A stretch of 50,846 bases of DNA, from positions 1 to 50,846 of the IMG/VR virus record IMGVR_UViG_3300018063_000007. One strand, given 5' to 3'. Within the stretch, counting starts at the first letter, position 1, and every line of letters begins with the position of its first letter. Source of the stretch: a virus. The translations under genes and the position numbers were made by a program. The notes beneath the pieces were generated by a model. That model was given only the letters and a program-made list of their open reading frames with translations, ran no database searches and was not told the origin of the DNA. Shown in pieces: positions 4,542 to 19,415 of this stretch.

Positions 4542-4709
4542 ATGGCACCGATCACCGTTCGTGACCTCGCCGAGCGCATCGCTGACGTGGTGATGGCCCT
4601 CGAAGACATCCCCATGCACTGGCCCCAGCGGAGCGCCGTGAGCACGCAATGTAACACACTGCGCACCATCGTGGCCGTGTTAGGGGGCGAGGTGAGCGAT
4701 GTCGAGTAG
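4542..4709 (+). CDS. Small helical hypothetical protein
   Basis: 55 residues starting MAPITVRDLAERIADVVM, with GAAGG upstream. It is all helix-forming. The stop overlaps the start region of the Cas4/RecB-like nuclease by 11 bases, suggesting coupled expression. No family was recognised; a role as an accessory subunit of the nuclease is only a guess from position. Confidence 0.5.
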   Translation: MAPITVRDLAERIADVVMALEDIPMHWPQRSAVSTQCNTLRTIVAVLGGEVSDVE

Positions 4710-5694
4710 CGGTACGGGCACGAGTTTCAATGATTCGTTCAAAGCGTGCATGCAACTCGGCTACCTACACCACGTGCGCGGTATGCGCAAGCGTGGTGAG
4801 ACCTTCGCCCCTCCACTCGTTGTGGGCGAGGCTGCCCACAAGTACGCTGAGACGATCTTCAAAGGCTGGATCGCCGGGCTGACCAGCAAGCCGGAGATGT
4901 TACGCGAGGAGGCCGAAGCACAGTTTGACGCTATTGTCAAGCCGTACTACGATCAGGCTGCTGGCGACGATCTGCTCTACGCGAAACTCAACAAACGTGT
5001 AACCTCGGCTCGCAACGTGTTGCGTATTTGGCGTGACCTCCAGTGGGCACGTCTTGAAGCACACGTCGACATCCCCATTGCGGCCGAGAAAGACATACTC
5101 GTTGAGTTTCCTGCTGAGACGCGCTATGGGCCGATCGCCCCTCACTTACGGCCCTTTACTGGCCGCATCGACCTCGTGGTCGAACGCCGAGACGGGCTTG
5201 ACGCCGTGACGCGACTTGGTGTAACAATCAGGGACATCAAGACCAGCTCAGCAAACGACTTGAAGGGCATGCTCGCCAACCACTACCGCTCAGACCAGCA
5301 TCTCGGATACGCCTTTGGGTGGAATCTCGAACATCCGTACGTGCCCGACAACCAATGTACGCAAGTTGAATATGAGGGCATGCGCTTCGCCGATTGCGCG
5401 ATCAACGACAAGTCATTTTGTAACCTTCGTCGGCCCGTACGCCAATCGCAACTCGACAATTGGTACGAGCGTACAATGGCGCTCCGGGCTCGGCTGTCGC
5501 GGATGTGGCCCGAGCCTACGGTGTTCGACGTCCGTGAGGCGTGGGAGCAAAACAACACGAATACTGGCCCATGCGAGAACTTCTGGGGTAAGTGCGAGTT
5601 TTGGGACTTGTGCGAAAATCCTGGTGACACCGACGCCATTGGGCCAGTGGGCTCAGGCGCTCCGTTTGAGGAGCATGGGCCGGTGCTTGCATGA
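4699..5694 (+). CDS. Cas4/RecB-like PD-(D/E)XK nuclease with Fe-S cluster
   Basis: 331 residues. The pattern is that of RecB-family exonucleases of the PDDEXK_1/Cas4 type: a single N-terminal Cys (C17), a motif-I histidine in GEAAHKYAE (H47), D158 in GRIDLVV, the D-x-K pair at D179/K181, and Q200...Y204. Three C-terminal cysteines (C292, C299, C305) complete a probable 4Fe-4S cluster with C17. In this family such enzymes degrade or process DNA ends. The Sak4-like ATPase lies about 700 bp downstream and a DUF669-like gene follows it, so this is a phage recombination cassette. All catalytic positions look intact. Confidence 0.85.
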   Translation: MSSSGTGTSFNDSFKACMQLGYLHHVRGMRKRGETFAPPLVVGEAAHKYAETIFKGWIAGLTSKPEMLREEAEAQFDAIVKPYYDQAAGDDLLYAKLNKRVTSARNVLRIWRDLQWARLEAHVDIPIAAEKDILVEFPAETRYGPIAPHLRPFTGRIDLVVERRDGLDAVTRLGVTIRDIKTSSANDLKGMLANHYRSDQHLGYAFGWNLEHPYVPDNQCTQVEYEGMRFADCAINDKSFCNLRRPVRQSQLDNWYERTMALRARLSRMWPEPTVFDVREAWEQNNTNTGPCENFWGKCEFWDLCENPGDTDAIGPVGSGAPFEEHGPVLA

Positions 5695-6117: not shown

Positions 6118-6385
6118 ATTCATGAAAGCGTTTGAAAGAAAGCTGAAGACGCACAATAAGCTAAAGTGGCAGGTAAGCGCATATATTAGGGGGTACGCAA
6201 CTGACCAACACAGACAATACTGCCCAATAGAGTTTGTGGCCGGTGTAGAGGGCGCCTACTTAGCTGGCGAGTCGATTTTGCGGCTGAGAAAATCTTCTGC
6301 TTACAGTATCATCGACGCTGCTGATGGTAAGCCAGGCCGTATTCGAAATCAACTCCTTAAGATCGTGGCCCCCTATGTCAGATAG
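6104..6385 (+). CDS. MSVREF family protein, copy 2
   Basis: 93 residues, starting MSVREFMKAFERKLKTHNKL and ending LLKIVAPYVR. It is closest to the copy in 9118-9915 in its CPIEFV motif, and shares its start and last eight residues with copy 1. It overlaps both neighbours: its start lies inside copy 1 and its stop lies inside the ATPase gene. The function is unknown. Confidence 0.7.
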   Translation: MSVREFMKAFERKLKTHNKLKWQVSAYIRGYATDQHRQYCPIEFVAGVEGAYLAGESILRLRKSSAYSIIDAADGKPGRIRNQLLKIVAPYVR

Positions 6386-7292
6386 CACGACCGTTGGCGC
6401 CCGCCCCCTCGCAACAGCCTACGACCCTTCGCGATTTACGCTAGGGCTCTACGCTCGTAATGGTGTAGGCAAGACCGCTGGTGCAGCGTCCTTCTGCGGC
6501 GGCGAGGCCGGTAAGGGCCTGGTGCTGAACATCGAGGCTGGCGTTGTGAACGACGCTGGGGGCGCAACTACGATCCAACACCTCGCCGGCATCTACGACC
6601 ACGTAACCCAAGACGACTTCTCTATGCTCGATGTGCGTGACTGGCAGGACGCCGAGAATCAGATCCGCTGGCTCCAGCGTGAGGCGCCCAATCTCGTCGA
6701 GGATGGCTTTACCACTCTCATCATGGACTCGGGCACCGATAGCGTGCAACTTCTCAAACGTGCCCTCACCCGCATCAACCCCGCGAACCTCAAAGGTAAC
6801 GTCGACAAGCATGGTCAAGAGGACTCCGCGAAGAAGAACCACAAACGCGCCCTTGTGCCTTGGATCGACGGCAAGCCCGGTCGTGGCATGGAATTTGACG
6901 ACTGGGAATACATTGCCGACTCGTTCTTCTTCGTGATCGCCACGCTTAAGGGGCTACCGTTCAGGCTTATTGTGACGTTCACCGAAGGTGAGGGGTACGA
7001 CGAGAACACCGGCATGAAGATGGGCTATGGCCCTAGCACCGAGGGCCAGAAGATCGGGAAGTCGATCATGGGGAAGTTCAACGCATTCTTTCATTGTCGG
7101 GTGGCGGAGACAGGTCAGCACATGTGGTTGACGCAAAACACCGTGGGCGCAACCGACTCGCTGGGCGATCCCTACTGGGCCAAGCATCGGTATGGATTGA
7201 AGCTCGATCGGCTGGAGCCCGCTAATGGTTTGGCGTTGATGAAGAAGATTGGGGTGCTCAAGTGCCCGCGCACAGAGGAGGAGGAGGCGTGA
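6375..7292 (+). CDS. Sak4-like RecA-fold ATPase
   Basis: 305 residues from ATG 6375 (an upstream in-frame start at 6324 would sit inside the preceding gene). Walker A is GLYARNGVGKT (residues 24-34) and Walker B is FTTLIMD with D118. Length and motifs fit the AAA_24/Sak4 group of phage RecA-like proteins, which promote strand annealing with a phage single-strand-binding protein. The flanking Cas4-like nuclease and DUF669-like gene support this role. The exact subgroup needs a profile search. Confidence 0.75.
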   Translation: MSDSTTVGARPLATAYDPSRFTLGLYARNGVGKTAGAASFCGGEAGKGLVLNIEAGVVNDAGGATTIQHLAGIYDHVTQDDFSMLDVRDWQDAENQIRWLQREAPNLVEDGFTTLIMDSGTDSVQLLKRALTRINPANLKGNVDKHGQEDSAKKNHKRALVPWIDGKPGRGMEFDDWEYIADSFFFVIATLKGLPFRLIVTFTEGEGYDENTGMKMGYGPSTEGQKIGKSIMGKFNAFFHCRVAETGQHMWLTQNTVGATDSLGDPYWAKHRYGLKLDRLEPANGLALMKKIGVLKCPRTEEEEA

Positions 7293-8401: not shown

Positions 8402-9121
8402 ATGGAACTCACAGCCCAAAACGTCATGGCGTGGCGGTTGCAGTTCACACGCTGTGATCTCTGCCCATTTCAACGTCGGCGCAAAGTCGGCTTCGCTGGT
8501 GACATCAACGCCGACATCATCTTGTGGGGCGAGGCGCCTGGCGCTGATGAAGCCTCCTACCGTGCCGGCCAGCAACTCTATGGCGAGCCGTTCGTCGGCC
8601 GTGCTGGTTGGGCGTTGAAGGAGCACATTTTGCTAGAAGCTGGCCCGAAGTTCGCGGTGCGTGAAGGCAAGGGCCACCGGCTGACGTGCTTTGTCGGTAA
8701 CACCATCATGTGCAACCCTCCAAAGAACAAGATCACTGGCACACTCGCCCGCAAGGCCCGTGCGGCATGCACGCCCTCCGGTCAGTTGCTATTAGCTGCA
8801 CTAATACGCAAAAAACGCCGTACACTGGTCCCTATGGGCGATGTGGCCCTCGAAGCCACAAAGGGCGTGACTGGCATTGGCAAGCACCGAGGGCGTGTCA
8901 ACGTCTTTAACGCACCGACGATCATGTTTGAGCATGAACAACTCAAGATCCTGCTCCGAGGTGTGAAGCCACCTACGGAGTGGAAAGGCCACAAGAACGC
9001 TGAGGGCAAGAAGGTGCTGGGCCACGAGGGCATCGTGCGATTGCTGTTGGCGTGGAATAGACGTATGATGAAGCCTAGGAAGCTACCGAAGGTGAAACGA
9101 ACGAAGCAGGAGACTCCATGA
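8402..9121 (+). CDS. Family-4 uracil-DNA glycosylase, N-terminal domain part (motif B missing)
   Basis: 239 residues from ATG 8402 (GTG 8369 would add 11; neither has a clear ribosome-binding site). It shows family-4 UDG hallmarks: four Fe-S cysteines C18, C21, C104 and C123, motif A GEAPGADE (43-50) and the following GEPFVGRAG. Similarity fades after GKHRGRV (~166). The second catalytic motif of the family, HPA.LL, is absent; instead it occurs at the start of the exonuclease gene at 13285. The last ~70 residues are basic and unlike UDG. The enzyme would excise uracil from DNA, but alone it looks incomplete. Confidence 0.8.
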   Translation: MELTAQNVMAWRLQFTRCDLCPFQRRRKVGFAGDINADIILWGEAPGADEASYRAGQQLYGEPFVGRAGWALKEHILLEAGPKFAVREGKGHRLTCFVGNTIMCNPPKNKITGTLARKARAACTPSGQLLLAALIRKKRRTLVPMGDVALEATKGVTGIGKHRGRVNVFNAPTIMFEHEQLKILLRGVKPPTEWKGHKNAEGKKVLGHEGIVRLLLAWNRRMMKPRKLPKVKRTKQETP

Positions 9122-9915
9122 CTATTGGTGAGTTCTTGAAGAAGTTTGAGCGGAAGGTGAAAGCAAAAAAGGTAAAGTGGCAGGCAACCGTAAAAATACG
9201 GGCACAATTAGCTGTGGGCGCCTCTACAGCGTTATGGCCTATGTGTCCAATTGAGTTTGTAGTAGGCCGTAGGAATTACCTTATTGGAGCAGAAAAACTT
9301 GGGTTGACAATGGCACAAACTCGTGCAATTGCTGACGCCGCCGATTTTGCTGACTCCGAGGCAAGCAAGCGCCTCCGTATACAGCTCATCAAGATCATAA
9401 AGCCTTACCTTGTTGCCCTACTTCTCGTAATGCTGACGAGCGCTGACTTGTGGGCCGTCCCGGCGAGCTGTAAGTGTTTTACTGAGAATGGCTTTTGGTC
9501 TTGTACCTGTCCTGATGGGTGGATATTGGAACCTACACCCGCGCTAACCTGTGTCCCTACCGTCCCAATCGTCCGCATCAAGCCTGGCTACGACCACCCG
9601 CTCCTCGTGGCGCCGGGCGAGACGGGGACGTTCCTGCTCGCTATCAAGAACCGGGACCAAGCGGGCTGCCCAGCGCACACGTTCGAGATTGGCGCGGCAG
9701 CGGCGTACGGCGCGGGTACAGGGGCGATTGAGGCCGTGCAGGACGCCACGCTCACGATCGAGCCACGCGAAACGAAGTACACGCGGGTGTACATCACGGT
9801 AGTGCCGGAGAGTGAGGTTGGGCCGGCGATCGTTGTGAGCCCGTATGTGCGGAGGACGGATGAGAGTCGACTGTATGGGCAGGCGGTTGGGCGGATTGTG
9901 GTGGTGGAGCCGTGA
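9118..9915 (+). CDS. MSVREF family copy 3 fused to exported Ig-like domain
   Basis: 265 residues. Residues 1-~100 (MTIGEFLKKFERKVK...LIKIIKPYL) are a third copy of the family at 5830 and 6104, which elsewhere ends at that PY. Here the frame runs on into VALLLVMLTSADLWA, which looks like a signal-peptide core, then a Cys-rich stretch and a beta-sandwich domain with the N.D...C...F signature (NRDQAGCPAHTF) found in bacterial surface proteins. The hydrophobic segment may act as a membrane anchor, or the second half may be translated from an internal start. A stop-codon loss fusing two genes is the likely origin. Confidence 0.65.
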   Translation: MTIGEFLKKFERKVKAKKVKWQATVKIRAQLAVGASTALWPMCPIEFVVGRRNYLIGAEKLGLTMAQTRAIADAADFADSEASKRLRIQLIKIIKPYLVALLLVMLTSADLWAVPASCKCFTENGFWSCTCPDGWILEPTPALTCVPTVPIVRIKPGYDHPLLVAPGETGTFLLAIKNRDQAGCPAHTFEIGAAAAYGAGTGAIEAVQDATLTIEPRETKYTRVYITVVPESEVGPAIVVSPYVRRTDESRLYGQAVGRIVVVEP

Positions 9916-10184
9916 GCGTACTTAAAAGTAACAGGTCGAAACGTAAAACGCGCTGCTCTGAAGGCTGCCCACATAGTAGTAGGAGAGTTGACGCGTGGAT
10001 TAGGAGAGAGTTGACTAGGGTTCAAGTTACACGTCCTGGCTTTAGTTATCGTTACTGGCTTGCTCTTACATTACTTTTAGAAACACGCGAGGCAGCTAGA
10101 TCATTGCTTATGAAGGTGTGTCAGCCACCGTACACTACTTGTACTTACCATGGGGAGTTAGCTCGTGCCCTCGAAAATGAATAA
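9912..10184 (+). CDS. Basic hypothetical protein
   Basis: 90 residues from GTG (GTGA overlap). The N-terminus is very basic (KSNRSKRKTRC), followed by cysteines (C15, C19) and a helical stretch (YWLALTLLLETREAARSLL). No family was recognised. Nucleic-acid binding would fit the charge but is not shown. Confidence 0.55.
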   Translation: MSVLKSNRSKRKTRCSEGCPHSSRRVDAWIRRELTRVQVTRPGFSYRYWLALTLLLETREAARSLLMKVCQPPYTTCTYHGELARALENE

Positions 10185-10413
10185 GGGTAAGTTTCCGGCG
10201 TTTCCGTTACCACGCGTGTCAATACCAACTGGCTACGTGGAATGGAGTGGACAAGAGGGCATGTCCCTCCGCGCGTACATTGCGACACATGCGTTAGCGG
10301 GGCTACTCGCCGCCCCTGATGTTCATGGGCGCCCTGAGTGGTTTGTCCATAGTGCTGTAGTGTATGCCGACGCTCTCCTCGCCGAGCTAGCGAAGGAGCC
10401 GACCGATGGCTGA
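10165..10413 (+). CDS. Conserved small phage protein (GMSLR.Y type)
   Basis: 82 residues. GTG 10165 has GGGGAG at good distance; ATG 10177 is an alternative. The motif GMSLRAYIATHALAGLLA followed by VVYADALLAELAK is typical of a common small phage protein of unknown role, usually written GMTLRDYFAA...YADALL. It overlaps the preceding gene by 20 bases. Confidence 0.7.
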   Translation: MPSKMNKGKFPAFPLPRVSIPTGYVEWSGQEGMSLRAYIATHALAGLLAAPDVHGRPEWFVHSAVVYADALLAELAKEPTDG

Positions 10414-10630
10414 CCTCCGCCTGCTGACGGTCCTCCTCGTGCTGGCACTCGCCGGGTGTAATGGCGGCATGGTACTTCCTGAACGGCCTCAAGAGTGCCA
10501 CCTTCTTGTAAACGGGAAGCCTGTGGGCATTTCGTGTCAATGGTCCGGTGGGCGCTGCATGAGCGACACATACGTAACAGTACAGGTAGGAGACGAAATC
10601 CATATCGTATGTAGGAGAGCCGATGGCTGA
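10406..10630 (+). CDS. Small lipoprotein
   Basis: 74 residues. The N-terminus MADLRLLTVLLVLALAGC is a signal peptide with a lipobox (LAGC, lipidated Cys at 18). The mature part is short and beta-rich with three further cysteines. Phage lipoproteins of this size act as outer spanins or block superinfection. No inner-spanin partner is adjacent, so the role is open. A Gram-negative envelope is implied but not proven. Confidence 0.65.
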   Translation: MADLRLLTVLLVLALAGCNGGMVLPERPQECHLLVNGKPVGISCQWSGGRCMSDTYVTVQVGDEIHIVCRRADG

Positions 10631-10886
10631 CCCCACGCTGGACGAATGGATCACGGCCGAGCTGGCGCAGTGCGAGGGGGCTAAATTGCCGCTGGGCTCT
10701 TACCATCGCGCCCTCACCCTGCTACAACAGCACCGCGCGGCGCTGCGGAAGCTATTCGCGCTTGTTGAAGACGGGACGCTCGTACGTGACATCTCTCGGG
10801 ACGACTTACGAGGTTGGGCGATGCGCCAAATACCACTTGTGAAAACGTTAGCTGAGGTCAGCGTCGTGCTTGCAGAGAAGCCATGA
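10623..10886 (+). CDS. Hypothetical helical protein
   Basis: 87 residues (MADPTLDEWITAELAQCEGA...). The first residues MAD and the overlap with the preceding gene (8 bases) mirror the junction at 10406. It is largely helical (RALTLLQQHRAALRKLFAL). No family was recognised. Confidence 0.6.
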   Translation: MADPTLDEWITAELAQCEGAKLPLGSYHRALTLLQQHRAALRKLFALVEDGTLVRDISRDDLRGWAMRQIPLVKTLAEVSVVLAEKP

Positions 10887-11248
10887 GCAAAGCCAACCCC
10901 AACGTGACGCACGCCATAGCCGATGTAATGAGCAGTTTGCTCAGTCGTGCCAACCGTGCAGAGGACCGCATCGCCCACCTCGAAGCCGACAAGGCACGGC
11001 TCACCACCGTAATACGAGAGCTACATCGCGTAGACTCACTTGGCTCAGACATCCCCAATGCTGGGCTGTACTGTCGTGCAATGGAGAAGGCTATTGATGC
11101 TCTCGCTGGCGTAGGCGACGTGCTCACGCCGGAGGAGCGCTCCCTCGTAACGAAGTGTGACCGCTGGCATGGGGGACCGCCGATATTCTACGCACTCCTT
11201 GCCATCCTCGACCGCATCGCCCCTGCACCAAAGGAGCCTGCGGCGTGA
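10883..11248 (+). CDS. Coiled-coil hypothetical protein
   Basis: 121 residues. A heptad-like region (residues ~15-50: SSLLSRANRAEDRIAHLEAD) suggests a coiled coil; the C-terminal half is helical. The ATG overlaps the previous stop. An 11-codon frame at 11245 follows but is too short to call. Confidence 0.6.
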   Translation: MSKANPNVTHAIADVMSSLLSRANRAEDRIAHLEADKARLTTVIRELHRVDSLGSDIPNAGLYCRAMEKAIDALAGVGDVLTPEERSLVTKCDRWHGGPPIFYALLAILDRIAPAPKEPAA

Positions 11249-11272
11249 CCGCTCGCTACTTTCAGATGACTG

Positions 11273-11503
11273 ATGACTGACCGTGCGTGGACGATGGGAG
11301 AGGTGTACGACCTGCTCGCGCTAGCGTGGGCGGTGCAGGAGCGTGAGGTTCGACGTTACAGTCAACTCCCGATAATGTTCCAACTATCGAACACCTGTGG
11401 AGACTGCGGTCGCGAGGGCACGTTGCACGAGTATTACTGCCTTACCGCGCCGGCCCGCCGCATCCTCGCCCCGATCCTGTTTCCTGAGAGGGAGGGAGTA
11501 TGA
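11273..11503 (+). CDS. Cys-rich hypothetical protein
   Basis: 76 residues starting MTDRAWTMGEVYDLLALAWA. A CGDCGREG...C cluster in the middle may bind zinc. The C-terminus reads RRILAPILFPEREG. The start has no strong site, but the TGATG junction with the short frame upstream suggests reinitiation. The function is unknown. Confidence 0.55.
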   Translation: MTDRAWTMGEVYDLLALAWAVQEREVRRYSQLPIMFQLSNTCGDCGREGTLHEYYCLTAPARRILAPILFPEREGV

Positions 11504-11625
11504 GTGACTGGGTAGAGAGAGGTCTAGCGGCCATGATTGGATTCTTAGCTTTCGTTGGGCTACTTACTGTGGCTGCTATCGGGGGGCAACTGGTACATCG
11601 TTGCTCTTGTGCGTGCGTACCATGA
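11500..11625 (+). CDS. Single-pass small membrane protein
   Basis: 41 residues with a strong GAGAGGGAGGG site. One transmembrane segment (MIGFLAFVGLLTVAAIGG) and a Cys-containing tail (HRCSCACVP). It is probably an inner-membrane microprotein. It overlaps both neighbours by four bases. Confidence 0.6.
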   Translation: MSDWVERGLAAMIGFLAFVGLLTVAAIGGQLVHRCSCACVP

Positions 11626-11837
11626 CCATCACCCTCATCTTTACCCTTCCTGACGAGCAAGCCGAGTACGACGACGCGCGGAACGGCACGAAGTGGAAGT
11701 GTGTCGTCGAGGCGCTCCGCGAGCACCTACGTGCGAAGCTGAAGTACAGCGACATACCTACCAAGCAACGGGTGATTGTTGCCGAATTGCTCACCACACT
11801 CCACACCATCTGCCAGGACTGGGACGTGTCGTTGTGA
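11622..11837 (+). CDS. Conserved phage protein (TLPDEQ.E...A.NG type)
   Basis: 71 residues: MTITLIFTLPDEQAEYDDAR then W-K and a helical region (VVEALREHLRAKLKY). This matches a small protein very common in phage early regions, usually with the motif F.LPEE..E...A..G..K. No function is established to my knowledge. An opposite-strand open frame covers it but lacks any phage-like signature. Confidence 0.75.
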   Translation: MTITLIFTLPDEQAEYDDARNGTKWKCVVEALREHLRAKLKYSDIPTKQRVIVAELLTTLHTICQDWDVSL

Positions 11838-12115
11838 GCGCAGTCGCGCCCGGCCACACCAATTCCCTCGTTGTCTACCGCTGCGCCGGCTGTGGGAAGG
11901 ACATTGAGCGCCGCCGGGTGAAGGTCAAGAAAACCCGCATCGGCTACGAGCGCACGATGCGCGGGTTCAAGACCATCTACACCTACACCCTCTATCACGG
12001 CTGCAAGGAGAAGCGCTGCGCCCCCGTCATCGCGTGGGATCGGCGCAAACAGAAACCGCGCTACGACAAGCGCTACAACAAAGAGGAGAACGCTCATGAG
12101 TATGCAAGTACCTAG
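11834..12115 (+). CDS. Basic zinc-ribbon protein
   Basis: 93 residues from GTG 11834. YRCAGCGKDIERRRVKVKK is a CxxC knuckle; a second pair may be C and C in HGCKEKRC (~62-67). The C-terminus is basic and Tyr-rich (RYDKRYNKEE). It probably binds nucleic acid, by analogy with zinc-ribbon proteins. Confidence 0.6.
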   Translation: MSAVAPGHTNSLVVYRCAGCGKDIERRRVKVKKTRIGYERTMRGFKTIYTYTLYHGCKEKRCAPVIAWDRRKQKPRYDKRYNKEENAHEYAST

Positions 12116-12425
12116 CGGAATTGTTGCGACGGCAGTGATGATGGCTGTGCTGACCGTACCCGCGTCGGCGGAGTGGGCATACGCACCACCCTTCCCGCTC
12201 GTCTCCGGCACGGTGGTGTGCCCTGCTCGCAACGACTCCGCCATCCCCCTGACGGTATGGATCGAGTGCGTGGAGGCGACGAACGATGGGACGGTAGAGA
12301 GCCCAAAGGTGTGCGTTGACCTCCTCCCCAACACGGCCTGCGCGATCACGAGTACGGACTCGCGGTGTCGGCGGTGCAAGGCGTCGTGGGATGGGGGCGT
12401 GGGGCGCGTGAGCATCGCGGAGTAG
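12096..12425 (+). CDS. Exported Cys-containing protein
   Basis: 109 residues. The N-terminus (SGIVATAVMMAVLTVPASAEW) is a signal peptide with an A-S-A cleavage site. The mature domain, about 85 residues, starts with a beta pattern (PLVSGTVVCPARNDSAIPLT) and has six or more cysteines, suggesting disulfides outside the cytoplasm. It has AGGAG upstream. It is an early, exported phage protein, so envelope modification or superinfection exclusion are possible roles; neither is shown. Confidence 0.6.
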   Translation: MSMQVPSGIVATAVMMAVLTVPASAEWAYAPPFPLVSGTVVCPARNDSAIPLTVWIECVEATNDGTVESPKVCVDLLPNTACAITSTDSRCRRCKASWDGGVGRVSIAE

Positions 12426-12434
12426 GAGGACAGC

Positions 12435-12635
12435 GTGAGCACCTGGACAATCGAAGTCGTCACCCGTGAGGCGTGGCTCGCCCGCATCGCCAAGCACGAG
12501 CGCCGCTGCCGGAAGTGTAAGCGGAGGGTGGTGTACAACGCCGGGACGACGACACATCCGCTGCCGCCGATCTGCTTGCGGTACATTGGGATGCTGTGGG
12601 GCCTACGGGCGTGCGAGTTAGCGAGGGTGGCGTGA
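12435..12635 (+). CDS. Zinc-knuckle small protein
   Basis: 66 residues from GTG with GGAGGA upstream. CRKCKRRVVYNAGTTTH contains a CxxC knuckle, with a later C in PICLRY. It is basic overall. The function is unknown. Confidence 0.55.
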   Translation: MSTWTIEVVTREAWLARIAKHERRCRKCKRRVVYNAGTTTHPLPPICLRYIGMLWGLRACELARVA

Positions 12636-12943
12636 GCCCAGTGTTAAGTGAGGCTCGGAGGTTGTTTATAATGAATCGGGCTCAACAGATGATATTAGCT
12701 GGTACAGCGCGAAAGTGCCCCTCAGACGGTTTGCTGTGTGATCGTTGTAATGATTTAGTCGAGGGTGCTTGCGGTATGATAAATGATGCCAATGCCGACT
12801 TCAACAGCATTCTTTGGCATGATAGCATGGCCGACAGCCACACCGACCTCACTATGTGGCTGTTGAAGCATTGGAGCGAGAGCATGCAAGTCCTCGCGGA
12901 ACGGCTGATGCGAGAGTACGACATTAGCAAGAAGGAGTCTTAG
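12632..12943 (+). CDS. Hypothetical protein with central CxxC
   Basis: 103 residues from GTG 12632 (GTGA overlap). The N-terminus is helical, a CDRC pair sits in LLCDRCNDLVEGACG, and the C-terminal half is a long helix (MWLLKHWSESMQVLAERLM). No family was recognised. Confidence 0.55.
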   Translation: MSPVLSEARRLFIMNRAQQMILAGTARKCPSDGLLCDRCNDLVEGACGMINDANADFNSILWHDSMADSHTDLTMWLLKHWSESMQVLAERLMREYDISKKES

Positions 12944-12945
12944 CC

Positions 12946-13059
12946 ATGTGCGAATGCTGCCGCCTCAGCGGTGTCGACTACATCTACCGTGGCTTGCTCA
13001 TCTGTACGCTGTGTGTCAAACGGTGGTGCGTGAGGCAGACGGAGTTGAGGAAGTTGTGA
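12946..13059 (+). CDS. Zinc-ribbon microprotein
   Basis: 37 residues: MCECCRLSGVDYIYRG then CTLCVKRWC. Two Cys pairs about 25 residues apart fit a minimal zinc ribbon. AAGGAG lies upstream. Its stop overlaps the GTG of the following membrane protein. Confidence 0.5.
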   Translation: MCECCRLSGVDYIYRGLLICTLCVKRWCVRQTELRKL

Positions 13060-13175
13060 GCGCCTGTTCATATTTTGCCGACATCGGCGCCGGTATCATG
13101 CTTTCGGGCATAGGGGCGCTCATCTGGCTCATCGTGGGCAGCTTGTTGTACCACGGGTGGATCAATCGTGAGTGA
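13056..13175 (+). CDS. Single-pass small membrane protein
   Basis: 39 residues from GTG 13056, with GAGG upstream. One hydrophobic span (IMLSGIGALIWLIVGSLLY). It is the third single-span microprotein of the early block. A longer frame exists upstream in this phase, but it would overlap the zinc-ribbon gene. Confidence 0.5.
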   Translation: MSACSYFADIGAGIMLSGIGALIWLIVGSLLYHGWINRE

Positions 13176-13278
13176 GCCTAGCGGGTGTTTCCAGCATCGA
13201 GTTCGTGACGATGGGGCGTGGTTTCACGAGATGCGCGCTGTCAACGCAGTAGCGCTGGCGACGCCCAGCACCCGCTAA
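13168..13278 (+). CDS. Possible 36-codon gene in frame with the next gene
   Basis: GTG 13168 to TAA 13276-13278, product starting VSEPSGCFQHRVRDDG. It is in the same frame as the exonuclease gene at 13285, separated only by the TAA and two codons. It may be an independent microgene, a degraded 5' piece of the downstream gene, or a leader whose stop is sometimes read through. It does not obviously resemble UDG. GGGTGG lies upstream. Confidence 0.3.
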   Translation: MSEPSGCFQHRVRDDGAWFHEMRAVNAVALATPSTR

Positions 13279-13284
13279 ATCTTT

Positions 13285-14106
13285 ATGAGTGAACTCCCCA
13301 GCTACATCGTCCCTTCGTACCACCCAGCCTACCTCCTTCGTAACCAAACTCTCACGAAGCCGACGATCGAGGATTTTCGCAAGGCCGCACGTATTCACGA
13401 GACAGGCCCGACACGCATTCCTATAGCTGAGCGAGAAAATGGTAGTATGGCTGACGCAGCGCTATTCCCGCTGCTTGATGATGTAGAAGGTTTCTTCAAA
13501 GGTTGGGGCCGTACTCATACCAGAATGTCCATCGACTTCGAAGCCACTATGACCGGCATCCCCTGGTGCGTGGGCTTCTGGCCGTGTGATAGTGAAGACC
13601 AAGTGCTTACCACTCAGGGTATCTGCATCCCCTTCCACAAACAGGGCGGCGAGAACTATTGGTCTCCACGCGACCACGAAGCGACCATGTGGCTGTTGAA
13701 GGAGTACCTCGAAGATCCTACACAGCCCAAGGTCGGGCAAAATTGGGTTGGTTATGACGGAGGTTACAACGATCATGGCTGGGAAGAAAGCGACCACTCG
13801 CTCGCATACCGAGCTTTCGGCATACGGGTTAGAGGCTTGGTACTCGACACGATGGTTGCACACCATGCGGTCTCTCCTGAGCTACCACATTCTCTTGCAT
13901 TCCAATCCTCTCTCTGTACTGACCTTGGTGCATACAAGCTGGAAGTCCACGCCACCTCATCGGTCGACGACGAAAAGGAAGACGACGCGCAGAAGGGCAT
14001 CCAAAACGTGAAGGACGTAGACGATAGGGTGTTACGGGGCTACTGCTTGAGGGACTGTTTTGCTGCTGGGCTGAGCGCGTGCGAGTTAGAGCGGGTGATG
14101 GCGTGA
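13285..14106 (+). CDS. UDG C-terminal segment fused to 3'-5' exonuclease
   Basis: 273 residues. Residues 7-37 (IVPSYHPAYLLRN...FRKAARI) match the end of family-4 UDG, including catalytic motif B with H13, which the UDG gene at 8402 lacks. Residues ~80-270 are a DnaQ-like proofreading domain: Exo I D84/E86 in SIDFEA, Exo II N153/D158 in QNWVGYD, Exo III Y253/D257 in YCLRD. The family A polymerase domain follows as a separate gene at 15072. In SPO1-type polymerases a UDG-like domain, exonuclease and polymerase form one chain; this gene is the middle third. There is no clear ribosome-binding site. Confidence 0.8.
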   Translation: MSELPSYIVPSYHPAYLLRNQTLTKPTIEDFRKAARIHETGPTRIPIAERENGSMADAALFPLLDDVEGFFKGWGRTHTRMSIDFEATMTGIPWCVGFWPCDSEDQVLTTQGICIPFHKQGGENYWSPRDHEATMWLLKEYLEDPTQPKVGQNWVGYDGGYNDHGWEESDHSLAYRAFGIRVRGLVLDTMVAHHAVSPELPHSLAFQSSLCTDLGAYKLEVHATSSVDDEKEDDAQKGIQNVKDVDDRVLRGYCLRDCFAAGLSACELERVMA

Positions 14107-14342
14107 AGCGTTTCGTAAACCTCGGTGAGCAGATTTGCCCTGGGGCTCCGTGCTTCGCGTGGTTTGATACTGTTGTATCCCAATTCGAGGAACACAATGG
14201 AGCACAAATATGGGATAGCTGGGGTGAGTTCAAAGCTGATTATGTGGGTGGTGACTTAAAGCGGTACTTAGGGCTATTCATGCGGTCAGATTTTGGTGGC
14301 ATTGTTGGCGCTCATGATACCACTATACTAACGGACGAGTAG
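14103..14342 (+). CDS. Hypothetical protein between exonuclease and polymerase
   Basis: 79 residues from GTG 14103 (GTGA overlap). It begins VKRFVNLGEQICPGAPCFAW and contains WDSWGEFKADYVGGDLKRYL. Some residues suggest a small alpha/beta fold; none is recognised. It is the first of five small genes lying between the exonuclease and polymerase parts. Confidence 0.55.
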   Translation: MKRFVNLGEQICPGAPCFAWFDTVVSQFEEHNGAQIWDSWGEFKADYVGGDLKRYLGLFMRSDFGGIVGAHDTTILTDE

Positions 14343-14479
14343 TGGCTACCTTGACCGACCACGAAGGCCTTTGGTATTGTAAGCACTGTGGCGCGTTGAA
14401 CGTAGCCGTGTGCGATTGTGATTTCTGTTTAGTATGCTGCCAAGTAATATGTATAGCACATGATGGGCACGAGTCGTGA
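14342..14479 (+). CDS. Cys-rich zinc microprotein
   Basis: 45 residues from a GTG sharing one base with the preceding stop. WYCKHCGAL, CDCDFC and CCQVIC give eight cysteines, plus histidines near the end, enough for two metal sites. The function is unknown. Confidence 0.5.
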   Translation: MATLTDHEGLWYCKHCGALNVAVCDCDFCLVCCQVICIAHDGHES

Positions 14480-14679
14480 CCACCTACACCGTCTGCTCTA
14501 CCTGTGGCACACCACACCTGTTCGACCCTTCGTGGGACGTAGAACAATGCCCAGACTGCTACTACGCCGACAACCACGAGCCGCTAGACGACACAAGTGA
14601 AAATGACTGGCTTGACTTTTTAGAAGACAGTTATCTTGATGATAGCCCCTGGGATTTAGACGAACATGATGAGGACTGA
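14476..14679 (+). CDS. Acidic zinc-ribbon protein
   Basis: 67 residues from GTG (GTGA overlap). CSTCGTPHLFDPSW...CPDC is a classic zinc ribbon, followed by a very acidic tail (residues ~35-67). An acidic tail after a ribbon could mimic nucleic acid or bind a partner protein; this is speculation. Confidence 0.6.
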   Translation: MTTYTVCSTCGTPHLFDPSWDVEQCPDCYYADNHEPLDDTSENDWLDFLEDSYLDDSPWDLDEHDED

Positions 14680-14920
14680 AGCTGCTGAGCTTGAAGACCT
14701 CCGCACCCAGAAATCCATCTGGCAAGGGTGCTACACCCGCCAGGTCGTGCGCCAGCTCAACACGTTTCACCTCGCCACCTCGGCGGTCGTGGCCCTTATA
14801 GCTATGCGCGACCAGCTCCCCACGCTCACCGAAGCAACCACCCACGAGCTATACCACCGGCTCGACGTGGCGATCGAGCAGTTGTCGTCGGCGTTGAAGG
14901 TGGCGGAGGGTGAGTTGTGA
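14666..14920 (+). CDS. Helical hypothetical protein
   Basis: 84 residues starting MMRTEAAELEDLRTQKS. It is all helical and probably forms a coiled coil. It overlaps the preceding gene by 14 bases. The function is unknown. Confidence 0.55.
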   Translation: MMRTEAAELEDLRTQKSIWQGCYTRQVVRQLNTFHLATSAVVALIAMRDQLPTLTEATTHELYHRLDVAIEQLSSALKVAEGEL

Positions 14921-15081
14921 CGGTAGAGAATGTAAACTGGCACTTTACGTATACAGAAGACAAACGTGCTGTTGTAACAGAGGTTGGTGGGCGAGTTAAG
15001 TGGTACGTATATCGATGTTATGGTCTTCAAGGCTACATTTGGGTAGCTGCTAGCATACTTGAGCGTGGCGCATGGGCCTAG
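14917..15081 (+). CDS. Small hypothetical protein before polymerase
   Basis: 54 residues from GTG with GGAGGG upstream. It has an aromatic, beta-like composition (WHFTYTEDKR, VKWYVYRCYG, YIWVAAS). Its stop overlaps the polymerase ATG by 10 bases. No family was recognised. Confidence 0.5.
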   Translation: MTVENVNWHFTYTEDKRAVVTEVGGRVKWYVYRCYGLQGYIWVAASILERGAWA

Positions 15082-16352
15082 GCGTCAGGCACATCCACGA
15101 CATCGGCCTCCCACTCCTCCCAATCGTCCAGCAAGTGGGCATGCAGGGCCTTCCCTTCGACGCCCAGCGCCGCGAATCTCTGTTGATGGACTTCATCGAA
15201 CCTGAGCTAGCCAACCTCGCGGGCTCGCTTGCCGATTGTGGCATCACCGACGCCAAATCCACCAAGAAGCTGGGCGCTGCACTGGCCGCGCTAGGGGTGC
15301 CGCTGGAGAAACACACGAAGGGCGGTGAGCAATTCGCTGTCGACCTCGAAGTCCTCCGGCGTAAGCACCATGAGTTTAACGAGGCCGACGATCGCGTTCG
15401 CTTTCCCTTTCTCCCCACCCTCATACGCTTCAAGCAGTTTGAGAAGGCACGTGCGAACCTGCACAGCATGGTCTTGTGCAAGGACGGTCGCCTGCGCTGT
15501 CGGTTGAACTCGCTGGGGACGGAGACGGGTCGTTATTCGAGCGCGGGTCTTGGATGGTGCCCGCGTTGCCACCAACCGGATCATGGCACGAACCTCCAAA
15601 ACATTGCTAAGAACAACGCTGAGATAGGACTGAACCTCCGAGACGTTATTGTAGCACGCCCAGGGTACACACTACTAGAGTTCGACTACTCGATGCTTGA
15701 GCTAAGGATCTTGGCATACGTAGCGAACGTCAAACTGCTCATCGAGCGCCTCGAACGGGGCGACGACATCCACAGCGAACATGAACGCGACCTGTTCGGC
15801 ACGGTGGGCGAAAGTCGCACCCTCGCCAAGAACTTCGGTTTTGCCGCCATCTATGGTGGTAAGGCCAAAGCTATTCAGATGGCCCTCGCCAAGAAGGGCA
15901 TTTTCCTCGAACTCGCTGAGATTGAGCGTCTTCGCTCGATCATGCTCTACGAACGCTACCCCGAGATTATCTCGTGGCAGATCGACGCTGAACGTCAGAT
16001 CAACGCGCTGAAGCTGGCGAAGCTTCCTGTGGCGGTGCGTACGGTGTTCGGCTCCGCGCGAGTCTTACTCGGCTACGAGCCCCTCAAGGAGTGGCTCAGC
16101 ACTCGCATCCAGGGCACGGCTGGGTGGATTATGTCGTTTAACCTCCTACGGATGCGCAAGCAAACGCGGGGCTACCTATGTACGCAGATCCACGACGCCT
16201 TCTTAGCCGAGGTTCCCGCAAACATGATGATGCAGTATACAGCGGAGATGGTGGAGTTGATGGAACGTAAAGTCTGGATGCATGACCGCTTCGTGCGCTT
16301 TCCCGTCGATGTCAGTTGTGGTAGACGGTGGAGCGAGATGACGAAGTGCTGA
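15072..16352 (+). CDS. Family A DNA polymerase, polymerase domain only
   Basis: 426 residues, lacking the exonuclease domain, which is on the gene at 13285. It has TETGRYSS (R154), NLQNI (174-178), motif A FDYSMLELR with D205, motif B RTLAKNFGFAAIYG with R249, K253, F257 and Y261, and motif C IHDA with D375. Both catalytic Asp are present. Two oddities: the usual Glu of motif C (HDE) is Ala, and a CPRCHQPDH insertion before NLQN could bind zinc. Phe at the nucleotide-selecting O-helix position is E. coli-like. It is the replicative polymerase, probably working with the separate exonuclease. Confidence 0.9.
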   Translation: MGLGVRHIHDIGLPLLPIVQQVGMQGLPFDAQRRESLLMDFIEPELANLAGSLADCGITDAKSTKKLGAALAALGVPLEKHTKGGEQFAVDLEVLRRKHHEFNEADDRVRFPFLPTLIRFKQFEKARANLHSMVLCKDGRLRCRLNSLGTETGRYSSAGLGWCPRCHQPDHGTNLQNIAKNNAEIGLNLRDVIVARPGYTLLEFDYSMLELRILAYVANVKLLIERLERGDDIHSEHERDLFGTVGESRTLAKNFGFAAIYGGKAKAIQMALAKKGIFLELAEIERLRSIMLYERYPEIISWQIDAERQINALKLAKLPVAVRTVFGSARVLLGYEPLKEWLSTRIQGTAGWIMSFNLLRMRKQTRGYLCTQIHDAFLAEVPANMMMQYTAEMVELMERKVWMHDRFVRFPVDVSCGRRWSEMTKC

Positions 16353-17320
16353 AGGCCCAATCGCTTGGCTGGCTCATCGACCACCCGCCACCGGAGGTAA
16401 AATCACTATGGGGCAACGCATTGCTTCCACGCCGGGGTCTTACGCTTTTACATTCAGCCTCGAAACAGGGGAAATCTATGTTAGCATTGAACCTTGCTTT
16501 AGCTGGCGCGGCTGGATTGCCTCACTACTTAGGTTTCCCTATAGAATCTACGTTTACGACCTTCGTACTTCAAGGCGAAATCCACTTACGGGGAGTGTGG
16601 GAACGTGCCTCCCAAATGATTCGGACTATGGGCGCGACCCTACCGAGCGAGGCCATTAACCGGGTGATCGTGAACGAGGAGCGTACCCTGCGATTGGCGC
16701 AGTCGGAGATGTGGGATGAGTTCCGAGAGGTAGTGCGGTGGCTTCGGCCCGATTTGGTAATTCTCGACCCCTTCGCCCACGTGCTCACCGAGGATGAGAA
16801 CTCGAACGTCATCGTGGGCAAGATCCTCGAAAAGATCGCGGAGTTGCGTGACGACCCTGGATGCGCTATCCTTCTCGTACACCATGACGGCAAGCCCAGC
16901 GAAAGCACGTCGTCGCGCCAACCTCGCCAGCGCTCGCGTGGAGCAGATCGCCTTAACGCAGATCCAGACAGCATTCTCTCGTTGGTGCCGCTCCGCCGTC
17001 CCAAGGGCTCAGGCCCGCTCAGCCGTCTTGAGCCTGTCTCTCGATACGGGCGAAGTGTGGATTCTTTCGACGTGGCCCTCAACGAAGACACGCTCTGGTT
17101 TGAGCGTGCGACGCAAGAGGACACGGAAGACTTTGACATCGCCATCGCCTCGTTGGTTCCCCCTGGAGGCTGCTCCGAGCAAGAATTACTCAGAGCCTTT
17201 AACACTGTCAAAGGATATAGTGACGGGCGGTTACGTCAAGCTCGATCAGCTTTCGCAGAAGCCGTTGGGCAGGGTATTTTGCAGGTAGAGCATGGAGTCG
17301 TGAGAAAAAAGGAGGAGTGA
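16328..17320 (+). CDS. RepA-like replicative helicase (AAA_25 type)
   Basis: 330 residues from GTG 16328, overlapping the polymerase end by 25 bases. The P-loop HSASKQGKS (42-50) lacks the first Gly but keeps GKS. Walker B is PDLVILD (141-147), a sensor-like LLVHHDG is at 183-188, and an RGADRL segment follows. The last ~60 residues look like a winged helix (CSEQELLRAFN...GRLRQARSAF). This architecture matches hexameric RepA-type helicases. Its place after the polymerase supports a role in fork unwinding. Confidence 0.75.
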   Translation: MERDDEVLKAQSLGWLIDHPPPEVKSLWGNALLPRRGLTLLHSASKQGKSMLALNLALAGAAGLPHYLGFPIESTFTTFVLQGEIHLRGVWERASQMIRTMGATLPSEAINRVIVNEERTLRLAQSEMWDEFREVVRWLRPDLVILDPFAHVLTEDENSNVIVGKILEKIAELRDDPGCAILLVHHDGKPSESTSSRQPRQRSRGADRLNADPDSILSLVPLRRPKGSGPLSRLEPVSRYGRSVDSFDVALNEDTLWFERATQEDTEDFDIAIASLVPPGGCSEQELLRAFNTVKGYSDGRLRQARSAFAEAVGQGILQVEHGVVRKKEE

Positions 17321-17556
17321 TGCCATACATCCCTCAAGACGCTCGTAAACAGCTTGACAGCGGTGACATCCAAGGGGGAGGTTCCCTCTGTTACCTCATC
17401 ACCATGTTGTGTAAAGGCTACCTCCTTCAACGTGGCGAGAGCTACGACCATTATGGTGAGGTACGCCACGCCCTTGCTACGACGTGGGATGAGTACGTGC
17501 TACCGCGCTTTCGCACCTACGAGGCCAAGAAGCGCGAAACCAATGGTGAAGTGTGA
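17320..17556 (+). CDS. DUF6899-like conserved phage protein
   Basis: 78 residues from ATG 17320, with an AAAAAAGGAGGAG site that also overlaps the helicase stop. MPYIPQDARKQLDSG followed by GSLCYLITMLCKGYL and a final KKRETNGEV matches the common phage protein usually starting MPYI.qe.R and ending in NGDV (DUF6899 by memory). The function is unknown. Confidence 0.65.
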   Translation: MPYIPQDARKQLDSGDIQGGGSLCYLITMLCKGYLLQRGESYDHYGEVRHALATTWDEYVLPRFRTYEAKKRETNGEV

Positions 17557-17930
17557 GGATATACGTTGCGGGCACCTTCGGCGACCGCTCCAAGCTCAAG
17601 AAGATTGTCAAGCGCATCCGCGCCACGGGCCACGAAGTCTCTAGCTCATGGATGTACGAGGGCAAGCGCCCAGAGGGGCAAACGCATGAGCATTGGTTCC
17701 AGCAGCTCGCCCTCAAAGATTTGGCCGAAGTACGTAAGGCGAACCTCTTGATCCTCGACACACGTACCCGCTCGCCTCGTGGAGGTAAGAACGTAGAGTT
17801 TGGGGCTGCGCTCGTTGAGTATAAGTTCGTGTGGGTCGTCGGTCCAGTGCGCAACGTGTTCGAGACGCTCGCTGATGAGCACTTCCCAACGTGGGCGGCT
17901 GCGATAGCGCGATTGAAGGAGGCTGTGTGA
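17553..17930 (+). CDS. Nucleoside 2-deoxyribosyltransferase-like protein
   Basis: 125 residues from GTG 17553. It begins with the fold's first strand and glycine turn (RIYVAGTFGDR), has GHEV then W, an acidic D56 in KDLAEV, LLILDT, and GGKNVEFGAAL with the candidate catalytic E82. This is the pattern of the PF05014 family, which transfers deoxyribose between bases or hydrolyses deoxynucleosides. In phages such proteins join nucleotide salvage or base-modification pathways. The gene after it is dATP/dGTP-diphosphohydrolase-like. Confidence 0.7.
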   Translation: MRIYVAGTFGDRSKLKKIVKRIRATGHEVSSSWMYEGKRPEGQTHEHWFQQLALKDLAEVRKANLLILDTRTRSPRGGKNVEFGAALVEYKFVWVVGPVRNVFETLADEHFPTWAAAIARLKEAV

Positions 17931-18328
17931 CCACGAACCTACTAACATGTACGAAGTGTCATGGTAAATACCCTCGTGAGGAGCTTGACACACATCCATG
18001 CGAACCTCGGTCACGCAAAGAGATGCTTGACGCGCAGCGGATGCTTGACGCACAGCGACCAGGTGTCGCGTACGATCTAAGCGAGCAAGATGAAGTGCTC
18101 GCCATCTTCATGGTGATGCTGAAGGAAGTTACCGCTGATGGGGGCCGAAAGCGGGCAAAGGGTGCAAAGCCGTCATGGAAGGTCGATCCTTCACATGAAG
18201 CAGCGATCTTCTCTCACCTAAACAGGTGGAAGCATGGTGAGAAGGTCGATCCCGATAGTGGTACTCACCCACTCGTGCATCTTGCGTGGCGGGCGCTGGC
18301 GATTGCGTATCAGGAGGGCGCCCGTTGA
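17927..18328 (+). CDS. dATP/dGTP diphosphohydrolase-like protein (DUF5664 type) with zinc N-terminus
   Basis: 133 residues from GTG 17927. The N-terminus has CTKC and H23...C25, a possible zinc site. Two tandem MLDAQR copies follow (residues ~33-44). The C-terminal domain (GAKPSWK, SHLNRWKHGEKVDPDSG, H114, H118) matches the family annotated as dATP/dGTP diphosphohydrolase N-terminal domain, usually G.KY...NW...RH...GE..D.ESG..H..H. Hydrolysis of dATP or dGTP is the family suggestion. It lies next to a deoxyribosyltransferase-like gene. Confidence 0.6.
   Translation: MTTNLLTCTKCHGKYPREELDTHPCEPRSRKEMLDAQRMLDAQRPGVAYDLSEQDEVLAIFMVMLKEVTADGGRKRAKGAKPSWKVDPSHEAAIFSHLNRWKHGEKVDPDSGTHPLVHLAWRALAIAYQEGAR
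18023..18058 (+). repeat. Tandem 18-bp repeat inside coding sequence
   Basis: 18023-18040 and 18041-18058 differ at two positions and both encode MLDAQR. It is an in-frame duplication in the linker of the surrounding gene. Confidence 0.85.
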
Positions 18329-18693
18329 AAATACTCCTGCTGGACATCGCGTGGCTTGCTGGGCTGTTAGAGGGCGAAGGTTCTTTCCATATTAGTACAA
18401 AGCGAGGTAAGCCAAGTTCATTGCTCGTTGTTGTGCAAATGACTGACGGCGATATAATTGAGCGGGTGGCGCAGCTATTCAATAGGCCGATGCATGGGCC
18501 CTACAAACGCCGCAATCCTTCGTACAAGCCTTTTTACTCTACGAGTATCTCGGCGAGTAGCGCTGCTAGCTGGATGATGACGCTTTATCCTTTTCTTGGT
18601 CAAAGACGCCGAGAGAAGATTAAGGAGCTTTTACATTTCTGGCGAGCACAAGCTGCTGGACGAGGAGGACGGCCACGCGCATCTTATTGCTAG
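18325..18693 (+). CDS. LAGLIDADG homing endonuclease
   Basis: 122 residues from TTG 18325, with an AGGAGGG site six bases upstream. One LAGLIDADG motif (LAGLLEGEG, residues 11-19) followed by GSFHIS, a QMTD segment and a C-terminal helix (RRREKIKELLHFW); single-motif enzymes act as dimers. The first residues LKILLLDI are not typical of this family but match the start of the exonuclease gene that follows, whose frame repeats RILLLDI at 18678-18698. The endonuclease therefore appears inserted just after the start of that gene. It overlaps the upstream stop (TTGA). Confidence 0.85.
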   Translation: MKILLLDIAWLAGLLEGEGSFHISTKRGKPSSLLVVVQMTDGDIIERVAQLFNRPMHGPYKRRNPSYKPFYSTSISASSAASWMMTLYPFLGQRRREKIKELLHFWRAQAAGRGGRPRASYC

Positions 18694-19415
18694 ATATAGA
18701 GACGAGCCCAAATACTGTATTCACATGGGGTTTGTTCAAACAAAATATCTCTACCGACAAGATCATCGACTCTAGTTCTGTCCTCTGCTGGGCCGCTAAG
18801 TGGTACGGTGAGCGCCAAGTGATGTTCGATTCCGTGCATGCATCGAAACCTAAGATGATGCTCCGCCGTATGCACAAACTCCTTGACGAAGCCGACGCCG
18901 TGATAACCTACTTCGGTGACTCGTTCGACCTTCCTACGTTGTCGAAGGAGTTTGTGCTTCATGGATTCACACCCCCGGCACCATTCAAGAAGGTGGACCT
19001 CTGCCGTGTTGTCCAACGTACGTTCAAGTTCCCGTCGAACAAGCTCGACTATGTTGGACAAGCCCTTGGCCTAGGTATGAAGACGCGCCACACTGGCTTT
19101 GAGATGTGGGTGCAGTGCATGGCGGGCGACGCGAAGGCGTGGAAGCTGATGGAGAAGTATAATCGTAGAGATGTGACATTGCTTGAGCAACTCTACGACC
19201 GCCTCAAACCTTGGATCAAGTCTCACCCCAACCATCGGCTCTACGACGACGACGCCCTCTGCCCTAACTGTGGGAGCGTACGCCACCAGCGAAGGGGTTA
19301 CGCTATGAGCAAGGTGCTCAAGTATTCTCGTTTTCAGTGCTTAGAGTGTGGCACGTGGTTCCGCTCGACGCATTGCGTGAAGGATGCGACAACGCGGTAC
19401 ACACAGGTTCAATGA
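18687..19415 (+). CDS. RNase H-fold 3'-5' exonuclease (YprB-like) with zinc ribbon
   Basis: 242 residues counted from TTG 18687. Related phage proteins start M(K/R)ILLLDIETSP. Here that position is ACG 18675, which has AGGAGG at ideal distance, so initiation at ACG (246 residues) is possible. Catalytic pattern: DIE (D3, E5), GDSFD (D81), YNRRD (Y158, D162). C192/C195 and C218/C221 form a C-terminal zinc ribbon. It probably degrades DNA or RNA from the 3' end. The original start region seems to be the one now used by the homing endonuclease at 18325. Confidence 0.75.
   Translation: MLDIETSPNTVFTWGLFKQNISTDKIIDSSSVLCWAAKWYGERQVMFDSVHASKPKMMLRRMHKLLDEADAVITYFGDSFDLPTLSKEFVLHGFTPPAPFKKVDLCRVVQRTFKFPSNKLDYVGQALGLGMKTRHTGFEMWVQCMAGDAKAWKLMEKYNRRDVTLLEQLYDRLKPWIKSHPNHRLYDDDALCPNCGSVRHQRRGYAMSKVLKYSRFQCLECGTWFRSTHCVKDATTRYTQVQ

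Follow-up and report, generated by a model that had tools for sequence, protein, structure and literature searches.

DNA polymerases of the SPO1 type carry a UDG domain, an exonuclease and a family A polymerase domain (PolA) in one continuous coding sequence. This arrangement is found in Bacillus phage SPO1 gp31 and its relatives (PHROG 17), including those of Microcystis phage Mel-JY34, archaeal virus vir526 and Pseudomonas phage PaBG (Pol I), and in SPO1 the continuity of the gene, gene 31, is broken only by a group I intron. In these polymerases the C-terminal element of the UDG immediately precedes the exonuclease. Family-4 UDGs hold motif B (HPxxLL) and the catalytic His in the same chain as the rest of the enzyme, and the pocket residues of Thermus thermophilus UDGa include F54 and N80 (PMC5387724). 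Some T4-like enzymes are encoded in separate pieces that reassemble, as described for NrdA-a/NrdA-b of Aeh1 and gp43A/43B of phage 25 (PMC2988022).

Here we analyzed a 50,846-nucleotide stretch of viral DNA (the window; IMG/VR record IMGVR_UViG_3300018063_000007), in which the same three domains occur in the SPO1-type order, on one strand, but in three ORFs instead of a single polypeptide. An N-terminal UDG piece (UDG_N, 8402-9121, plus strand, as are all features below) is followed after 4163 nt by a DnaQ/Klenow-type 3'-5' exonuclease gene (13285-14106) and, after a further 965 nt, by a family A DNA polymerase (15072-16352; PF00476 2e-34, PHROG 17 3.5e-47) with no exonuclease match. The first gap (break 1) holds a cassette of about 12 small genes (9118-13175) and the second (break 2) another set of small genes (14079-15081). 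No homing endonuclease family was recognized among the break-1 genes scanned, which were all but two small ORFs. The three domains are colinear with those of relatives within the same slot, which is bounded upstream by a Sak4-like ssDNA-annealing protein (6324-7292; phrog_124 4e-15) and downstream by an AAA_25 primase/helicase-like protein (16328-17320; PF13481 7e-24, phrog_906 2e-19), with a PD-(D/E)XK exonuclease gene as a further syntenic neighbor (4699-5694; PF12705 2e-10). The vir526 genome shares the Sak4-like upstream neighbor and has an exonuclease (phrog_69) at the position equivalent to the 4699-5694 gene. A strong Shine-Dalgarno sequence is absent from both the UDG_N and the exonuclease genes.

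The UDG_N product consists of the ~165 N-terminal residues of a family-4 UDG and a 73-residue clade-specific tail; a GTG at 8369 is a possible alternative start. It matches the Pfam UDG family (E 5e-8) and has motif A (GEAPGADE, residues 43-50, 8528-8551) and the sequence PFVG at residue 63; F64 and N100 are the counterparts of the T. thermophilus pocket Phe and Asn. The four cysteines of the predicted Fe-S cluster (C18, C21, C104 and C123) are conserved in all five phages with the split. Fold, cysteines, motif A and pocket Phe/Asn are common to UDG_N and the T. thermophilus (1ui0) and T. maritima (1vk2) enzymes. Foldseek matched the AF2 model of UDG_N to the family-4 structures 1l9g, 1vk2 and 1ui0 (1l9g, E 7.5e-8), and the UDG fold is recovered in part, because the target-normalized TM against 1l9g is only ~0.6. 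Block means of the model are mostly at least 90 up to about residue 150, no strand is present beyond residues 141-145, and pLDDT falls below 50 at residues 172-206 of the C-terminal tail. This tail (residues 167-239, 8900-9118), which bears a clade-conserved LRG..P..W, occupies in alignments the place expected for strand beta4 and motif B. The conserved tail could stabilize UDG_N alone, a point against the explanation preferred below. Fused-phage and stand-alone UDGs, but none of the split phages, were used to build a motif-B profile, which scores below zero on the UDG_N product. Two degenerate candidates within UDG_N that arose from first alignments (FEHEQLKILLR and GHEGIVRLLL) were rejected on the same score and on a His that is not conserved in the four homologs. 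No second UDG was found across the whole virus record.

The C-terminal UDG piece missing from UDG_N was located at the N-terminus of the exonuclease, whose residues 1-40 (IVPSYHPAYLLRN..., 13285-13404) comprise beta4, motif B (YHPAYLLRN, with His13) and the C-terminal helix. The NCBIfam family-4 profile TIGR00758 aligns with UDG_N over positions 1-130 only, and positions 140-169 of its 173 align with exonuclease residues 7-36 (E 0.004, whole library searched); the two genes thus match complementary, non-overlapping parts of one profile. In a six-frame search of the window the leave-out motif-B profile gave the 13285 ORF at E 4e-9 (next best 0.4), a score reached by 0 of 5000 shuffles, and it also matched the exonuclease of L047, another phage with the split (E 3e-8). 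No UDG remnant was found in any frame 5' of the exonuclease start. Exo I-III are intact (D84/E86, D158, Y253/D257), and a domain search detected no polymerase domain in this protein. Its Pfam exonuclease score of 19.5 bits is under the gathering score of 23.6, and its identity was confirmed by PHROG 17 (4e-12), a Foldseek match to Klenow 1kfd and alignment. In the AF2 model of the exonuclease, residues 1-13 are coil, with helices at 14-19 and 21-40. An earlier note on this DNA had described a UDG gene with GEAPGADE, four Fe-S cysteines and no HPA.LL, a YHPAYLLRN at the start of an exonuclease that has intact Exo motifs and no polymerase domain, and a polymerase without an exonuclease; each of these was found as described. 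The note would have yielded to a motif B inside the 8402 product or to unrelatedness of exonuclease residues 7-37 to UDG, and the profile searches gave the opposite result on both counts.

A census of ~44 loci compared contiguous and split forms; its exonuclease profile included one out-of-frame row, which produced a spurious second frame hit and had no other effect. In ~35 relatives, SPO1 gp31 included, the UDG C-terminal segment is contiguous with the UDG core, and contiguous UDG-exonuclease-PolA ORFs occur in many phages, SPO1 and vir526 among them. The ancestral ORF is therefore contiguous in relatives and split in the window. The three-gene split, with an identical break point, is shared by the window and four other IMG/VR phages, all uncultured and on contigs from different metagenomes, which form one clade (support 100/99 in the exonuclease and UDG trees). 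The cassette genes at the breaks differ among the five, the UDG-exonuclease gap ranges from 358 to 4163 nt, and in L010 the exonuclease and polymerase genes overlap. Single-protein viral-contig scans queried with UDG or polymerase returned no relatives, and neither did a scan of bacterial and archaeal genomes with the exonuclease alignment. The search for fused forms that the earlier note had proposed thus upholds its view of an ancestral single chain, cut twice and filled by variable cassettes, the earlier of the two break points along the chain lying within the UDG domain.

UDG_N is kept in all five split phages and never has motif B. Mean pairwise identity among the five is 38% for the exonuclease tail, 37% for the UDG core and 46% for the exonuclease body. 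Motifs A and B are both intact in the window and L047 and partial in L010, and the corresponding pairs are LDTPTRGD and LNPNQFF in L009 and LSMPEKDD and HDPKSVF in L063. Decay of motif A in the UDG gene thus goes with decay of motif B in the exonuclease gene, and the motif-B His is retained in all three split phages that retain the motif-A Glu. This parallel decay represents few events, as the three eroded members cluster in trees, with support just below the program's threshold in the exonuclease tree and just above it in the UDG tree. Several catalytic residues are lost in these three of the five, and the retained function may therefore be structural.

We consider it likely that the locus encodes a genes-in-pieces UDG-exonuclease-PolA replicase in which the N-terminal segment of the exonuclease supplies in trans the part that the UDG domain lacks. 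In the common ancestor of the five phages, a contiguous SPO1-type gene would have been divided into three cistrons. Break 1 would have fallen inside the UDG domain, directly ahead of the last beta-strand and motif B, and the N-terminal piece would therefore have become a separate protein, with the last strand, motif B and final UDG helix staying behind as an extension of the exonuclease. We infer that this extension docks onto the UDG_N sheet as the missing edge strand, in the manner of a split reporter. Docking would complete the UDG fold and a uracil pocket formed by Glu44, Ala45, Glu50, Phe64 and Asn100 of UDG_N and His13 of the exonuclease, and it would link the Fe-S UDG to the proofreading exonuclease, itself expected to act together with the separately encoded polymerase. 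In the window, and likewise in the phage most closely related to it, the predicted pocket needs both chains to be complete, and once assembled the module could bind uracil, or remove it, at the replication fork. The eroded pocket of the other three members suggests a structural role, and it is probably in this capacity that the assembly has been kept there. Because the active-site His is on the exonuclease, the two proteins probably must dock to give a working, or at least folded, module, and the sequences are best explained by a glycosylase that would function only as a pair of polypeptides. Equal expression of the two is not assured, as their genes are up to 4.2 kb apart. More tentatively, the pair may be a natural split UDG whose active site forms only once the exonuclease docks and donates its catalytic His, so that uracil recognition would be switched on only within the assembled replicase.

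The tail could alternatively be vestigial, with exonuclease residues 1-40 an old leftover of the fused UDG that now serves as an N-terminal cap, and UDG_N an Fe-S DNA-binding protein, either in decay or put to a new use, that does not join the exonuclease. The loss of motif A and/or motif B residues in three members, the new conserved tail of UDG_N and the fairly confident tail helices in the model of the exonuclease alone are in keeping with this idea. However, the exonuclease tail is conserved like the UDG core and shows no free decay, its N-terminal strand residues are unfolded in that same model, the His persists wherever the motif-A Glu does, and every member has UDG_N, always lacking motif B; we regard this alternative as unlikely.

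It is less probable still that UDG_N was acquired independently, as a stand-alone UDG from which motif B then disappeared, the exonuclease tail being the remnant of a different polymerase-fused UDG. UDG-core trees favor neither origin (AU p 0.24-0.32) and allow UDG_N to be placed among the stand-alone enzymes (AU p 0.24). The Fe-S cysteines are usual in stand-alone family-4 UDGs and missing from most fused ones, but the contiguous fused forms of L005, L078 and vir526 have them too. Moreover, the gene order is colinear within the same synteny slot, and a single break is more parsimonious than the loss, without overlap, of precisely the part kept by the exonuclease.

Restoration of a single chain by trans-splicing, through a split group I/II intron or split intein, is very improbable. 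Introns do enter this gene family, as SPO1 gene 31 illustrates, but Rfam searches of the window (E up to 1) and of 8800-15200 by itself found none, with a sensitivity limited in that SPO1's own intron, the control, scores only 25.6 bits. Each of the two genes also starts or stops at a conserved site of its own, the UDG_N tail is conserved, and the domain search recognized no intein domain. Misassembly or a dying pseudogene is just as improbable, for although every member is an uncultured contig, the same break with different cassettes recurs on five separate contigs from different metagenomes, with long conserved ORFs and intact exonuclease and polymerase motifs.

A UDG module that is normally one piece within a phage DNA polymerase is thus two proteins in a small group of uncultured phages. 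Should the pieces assemble, they would provide a ready-made split glycosylase, of possible use in base-editing or reporter tools. They would also make it possible to test why a UDG domain is present in so many phage family A polymerases, whether to survey the fork for uracil or to serve as a structural docking module, the role suggested by the eroded members. No earlier report of a natural split UDG was found in the literature searched, which lay mostly outside subscription journals. Two-gene UDG-exo/pol forms such as that of Caulobacter phage Kuura (MW202554) are cut between exonuclease and polymerase at about the domain border of break 2, but in them the exonuclease remains joined to a complete UDG domain. 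The pieces of Aeh1 NrdA and phage 25 gp43A/B are, like those of the window, colinear around an insertion (PMC2988022), and reassembly in the window would extend the likeness. A homing endonuclease gene or intercistronic sequence lies between those pieces, whereas no homing endonuclease was recognized among the break-1 genes scanned here. Split phage enzymes are already known, and in the cited cases each piece remains part of one enzyme. What sets the window clade apart from these, and from family-4 UDGs, is a cut through a catalytic domain that leaves the last strand and the key His attached to another enzyme, the proofreading exonuclease.

The product of the gene at 8402-9121 (239 residues; here UDG_N) gives a Pfam UDG match (5e-8) and covers positions 1-130 of the 173 in TIGR00758, the family-4 UDG model. 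Positions 140-169 of the same model are matched by residues 7-36 of the exonuclease encoded from 13285, and the two matches are complementary, without overlap. A motif-B profile, prepared from fused-phage and stand-alone phage UDGs with the window and its close relatives excluded, detected the 13285 ORF in the six-frame window with E 4e-9 (runner-up 0.4) and scored below zero on UDG_N; none of 5000 shuffled versions of the exonuclease N-terminus attained the real score. The earlier note had claimed that the UDG gene lacks motif B and that the motif lies at the N-terminus of the exonuclease gene, which these searches bear out. Translations revealed no further UDG sequence upstream of 13285 in any frame, and the 50,846-base record, from an uncultured phage, holds no second UDG. 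A single UDG domain is almost certainly split over two genes, at a position common to a whole clade.

In the AF2 model of UDG_N, block-mean pLDDT is mostly at least 90 up to about residue 150 and below 50 at 172-206, and the last strand lies at 141-145. Foldseek matched this model to family-4 UDGs (E 7.5e-8 to 5e-7, 162-170 columns, target-normalised TM ~0.6). The exonuclease model is coil at residues 1-13 and helical at 14-40. Both models look as expected of complementary fragments, their binding being itself a prediction.

The identical arrangement of UDG_N, other genes, exonuclease and separate polymerase occurs in four further IMG/VR contigs: 3300020122_000466 (L047/L088), 3300005441_000001 (L010/L065), 3300037137_000454 (L009/L064) and 3300017605_000491 (L063). 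The exonuclease of these relatives begins just ahead of the motif-B strand, and in L009 and L063 its start codon overlaps the preceding stop, supporting the assigned start. The five phages form one clade in both the exonuclease and UDG trees (100/99 each), with no member found among 50,697 phage records or in a bacterial and archaeal genome scan. The gap between UDG_N and exonuclease measures 4163 nt in the window and 358, 1353, 1817 and 1953 nt in L047, L010, L009 and L063, respectively. Because the arrangement is the same while the genes in the gap differ among the five phages, the break is probably older than its present cassettes. In the window, the gap genes that were scanned include no recognisable homing endonuclease, and no intron was found in the break region. 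Beside UDG_N, the four relatives encode a small predicted secreted protein with a signal peptide followed by AASL(R/K)(V/I)C (L047 8698-9084, L010 6802-7203, L009 4089-4442, L063 5749-6126); at this position the window has a different gene, with a membrane segment (9118-9915).

Mean pairwise identity is 38% for the first 40 exonuclease residues, 37% for the UDG core and 46% for the exonuclease body, from small samples with only moderate per-pair agreement: single pairs differ on average by 6 points from the core and by 9 points from the exonuclease body. Both motifs are intact in the window (GEAPGADE, YHPAYLL) and L047 (GEMPGKDE, IHPAALL); L010 has FEAPGADE and MHPASFF but no longer the pocket Phe, and both motifs are lost in L009 (LDTPTRGD, LNPNQFF) and L063 (LSMPEKDD, HDPKSVF). 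Motifs A and B thus decay jointly across the split phages, in all five of which the four cysteines are conserved. In one-chain UDGs, motif A loss is likewise associated with motif B loss (Fisher p 0.006, uncorrected for relatedness). The pocket of T. thermophilus UDGa comprises E41, G42, E47, F54, N80 and H155, and H155S reduces k2 by a factor of over a thousand (PMC5387724). In the alignment, the first five correspond in the window to E44, A45, E50, F64 and N100 of UDG_N, and the sixth to His13 of the exonuclease. The split phages have kept both UDG_N and the exonuclease tail, and the two change in parallel; for this reason they likely assemble in trans, as judged from sequence. Catalysis by the window phage is predicted at slightly under an even bet; in three split members the assembly, if it occurs, would probably be structural.

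The exonuclease and polymerase also occupy separate genes, as previously claimed. The 13285 product retains D84/E86, D158 and Y253/D257, matches PHROG 17 DNA polymerase and, as a model, Klenow (Foldseek); the polymerase encoded from 15072 belongs to family A (PF00476 2e-34) and has no exonuclease match. In L010, the exonuclease and polymerase ORFs overlap. Neighbouring window genes encode a PD-(D/E)XK nuclease, a Sak4-like annealing protein and an AAA_25 primase/helicase-like product. In virus vir526, one fused 859-residue polymerase is flanked by an exonuclease-Sak4 pair and a primase, and therefore the three window genes fill the slot of one gene. Downstream, at 17553-18328, a nucleoside 2-deoxyribosyltransferase-like gene (PF05014, below cut-off) lies beside a dATP/dGTP diphosphohydrolase-like gene (PF18909 7e-9); the window polymerase also shows weaker matches to aminoadenine-incorporating DpoZ models, and nucleotide-pool or base modification is possible. 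A weak LAGLIDADG-like match at 18286-18693 (3e-4, just below cut-off), ~2 kb downstream of the polymerase, is possibly a homing endonuclease near the broken genes, and the product of 18687-19415 is a second exonuclease-like protein of RNase H fold (PF13482 5e-13).

Phages with the three parts fused, as the proposed ancestry called for, were found. In a census of ~44 loci, a single frame in nearly all relatives runs from the UDG core through motif B into the exonuclease, and usually on into the polymerase; the polymerase is separate in Kuura, MW202554, L067 and L071, and L084 carries a complete UDG apart from its exo-pol. In SPO1 gp31, counted from where the open frame begins, the UDG core spans 26-148, motif B starts at 154 and the exonuclease at 221; the polymerase comes next, and the known intron is present. 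This order makes the earlier comparison with SPO1 right for architecture. Motif A of SPO1 is eroded (QENPFDYE). Catalytic motifs are eroded in several fused phage UDG-polymerases (L066, L021, L083 and SPO1 gp31, L091 2203-4068), which suggests a non-catalytic role for their UDG domain. In seven relatives (L072, L024, L079, L037, L041, L042, L086) the pol domain is interrupted for 0.2-2 kb at pol-profile position ~155-189, mostly 169-175, coinciding with the group I intron site of SPO1 gene 31 (167/173). These interruptions are probably introns; Rfam did not recognise them as such.

The literature searched yielded no report of a natural split UDG. In T4-like phages, enzymes likewise exist in pieces and their reassembly is established (PMC2988022); reassembly in the window phage is predicted. 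The UDG-polymerase described in PaBG is fused (PMC7412058); in the window, by contrast, the UDG domain is split over two genes and the polymerase is separate.
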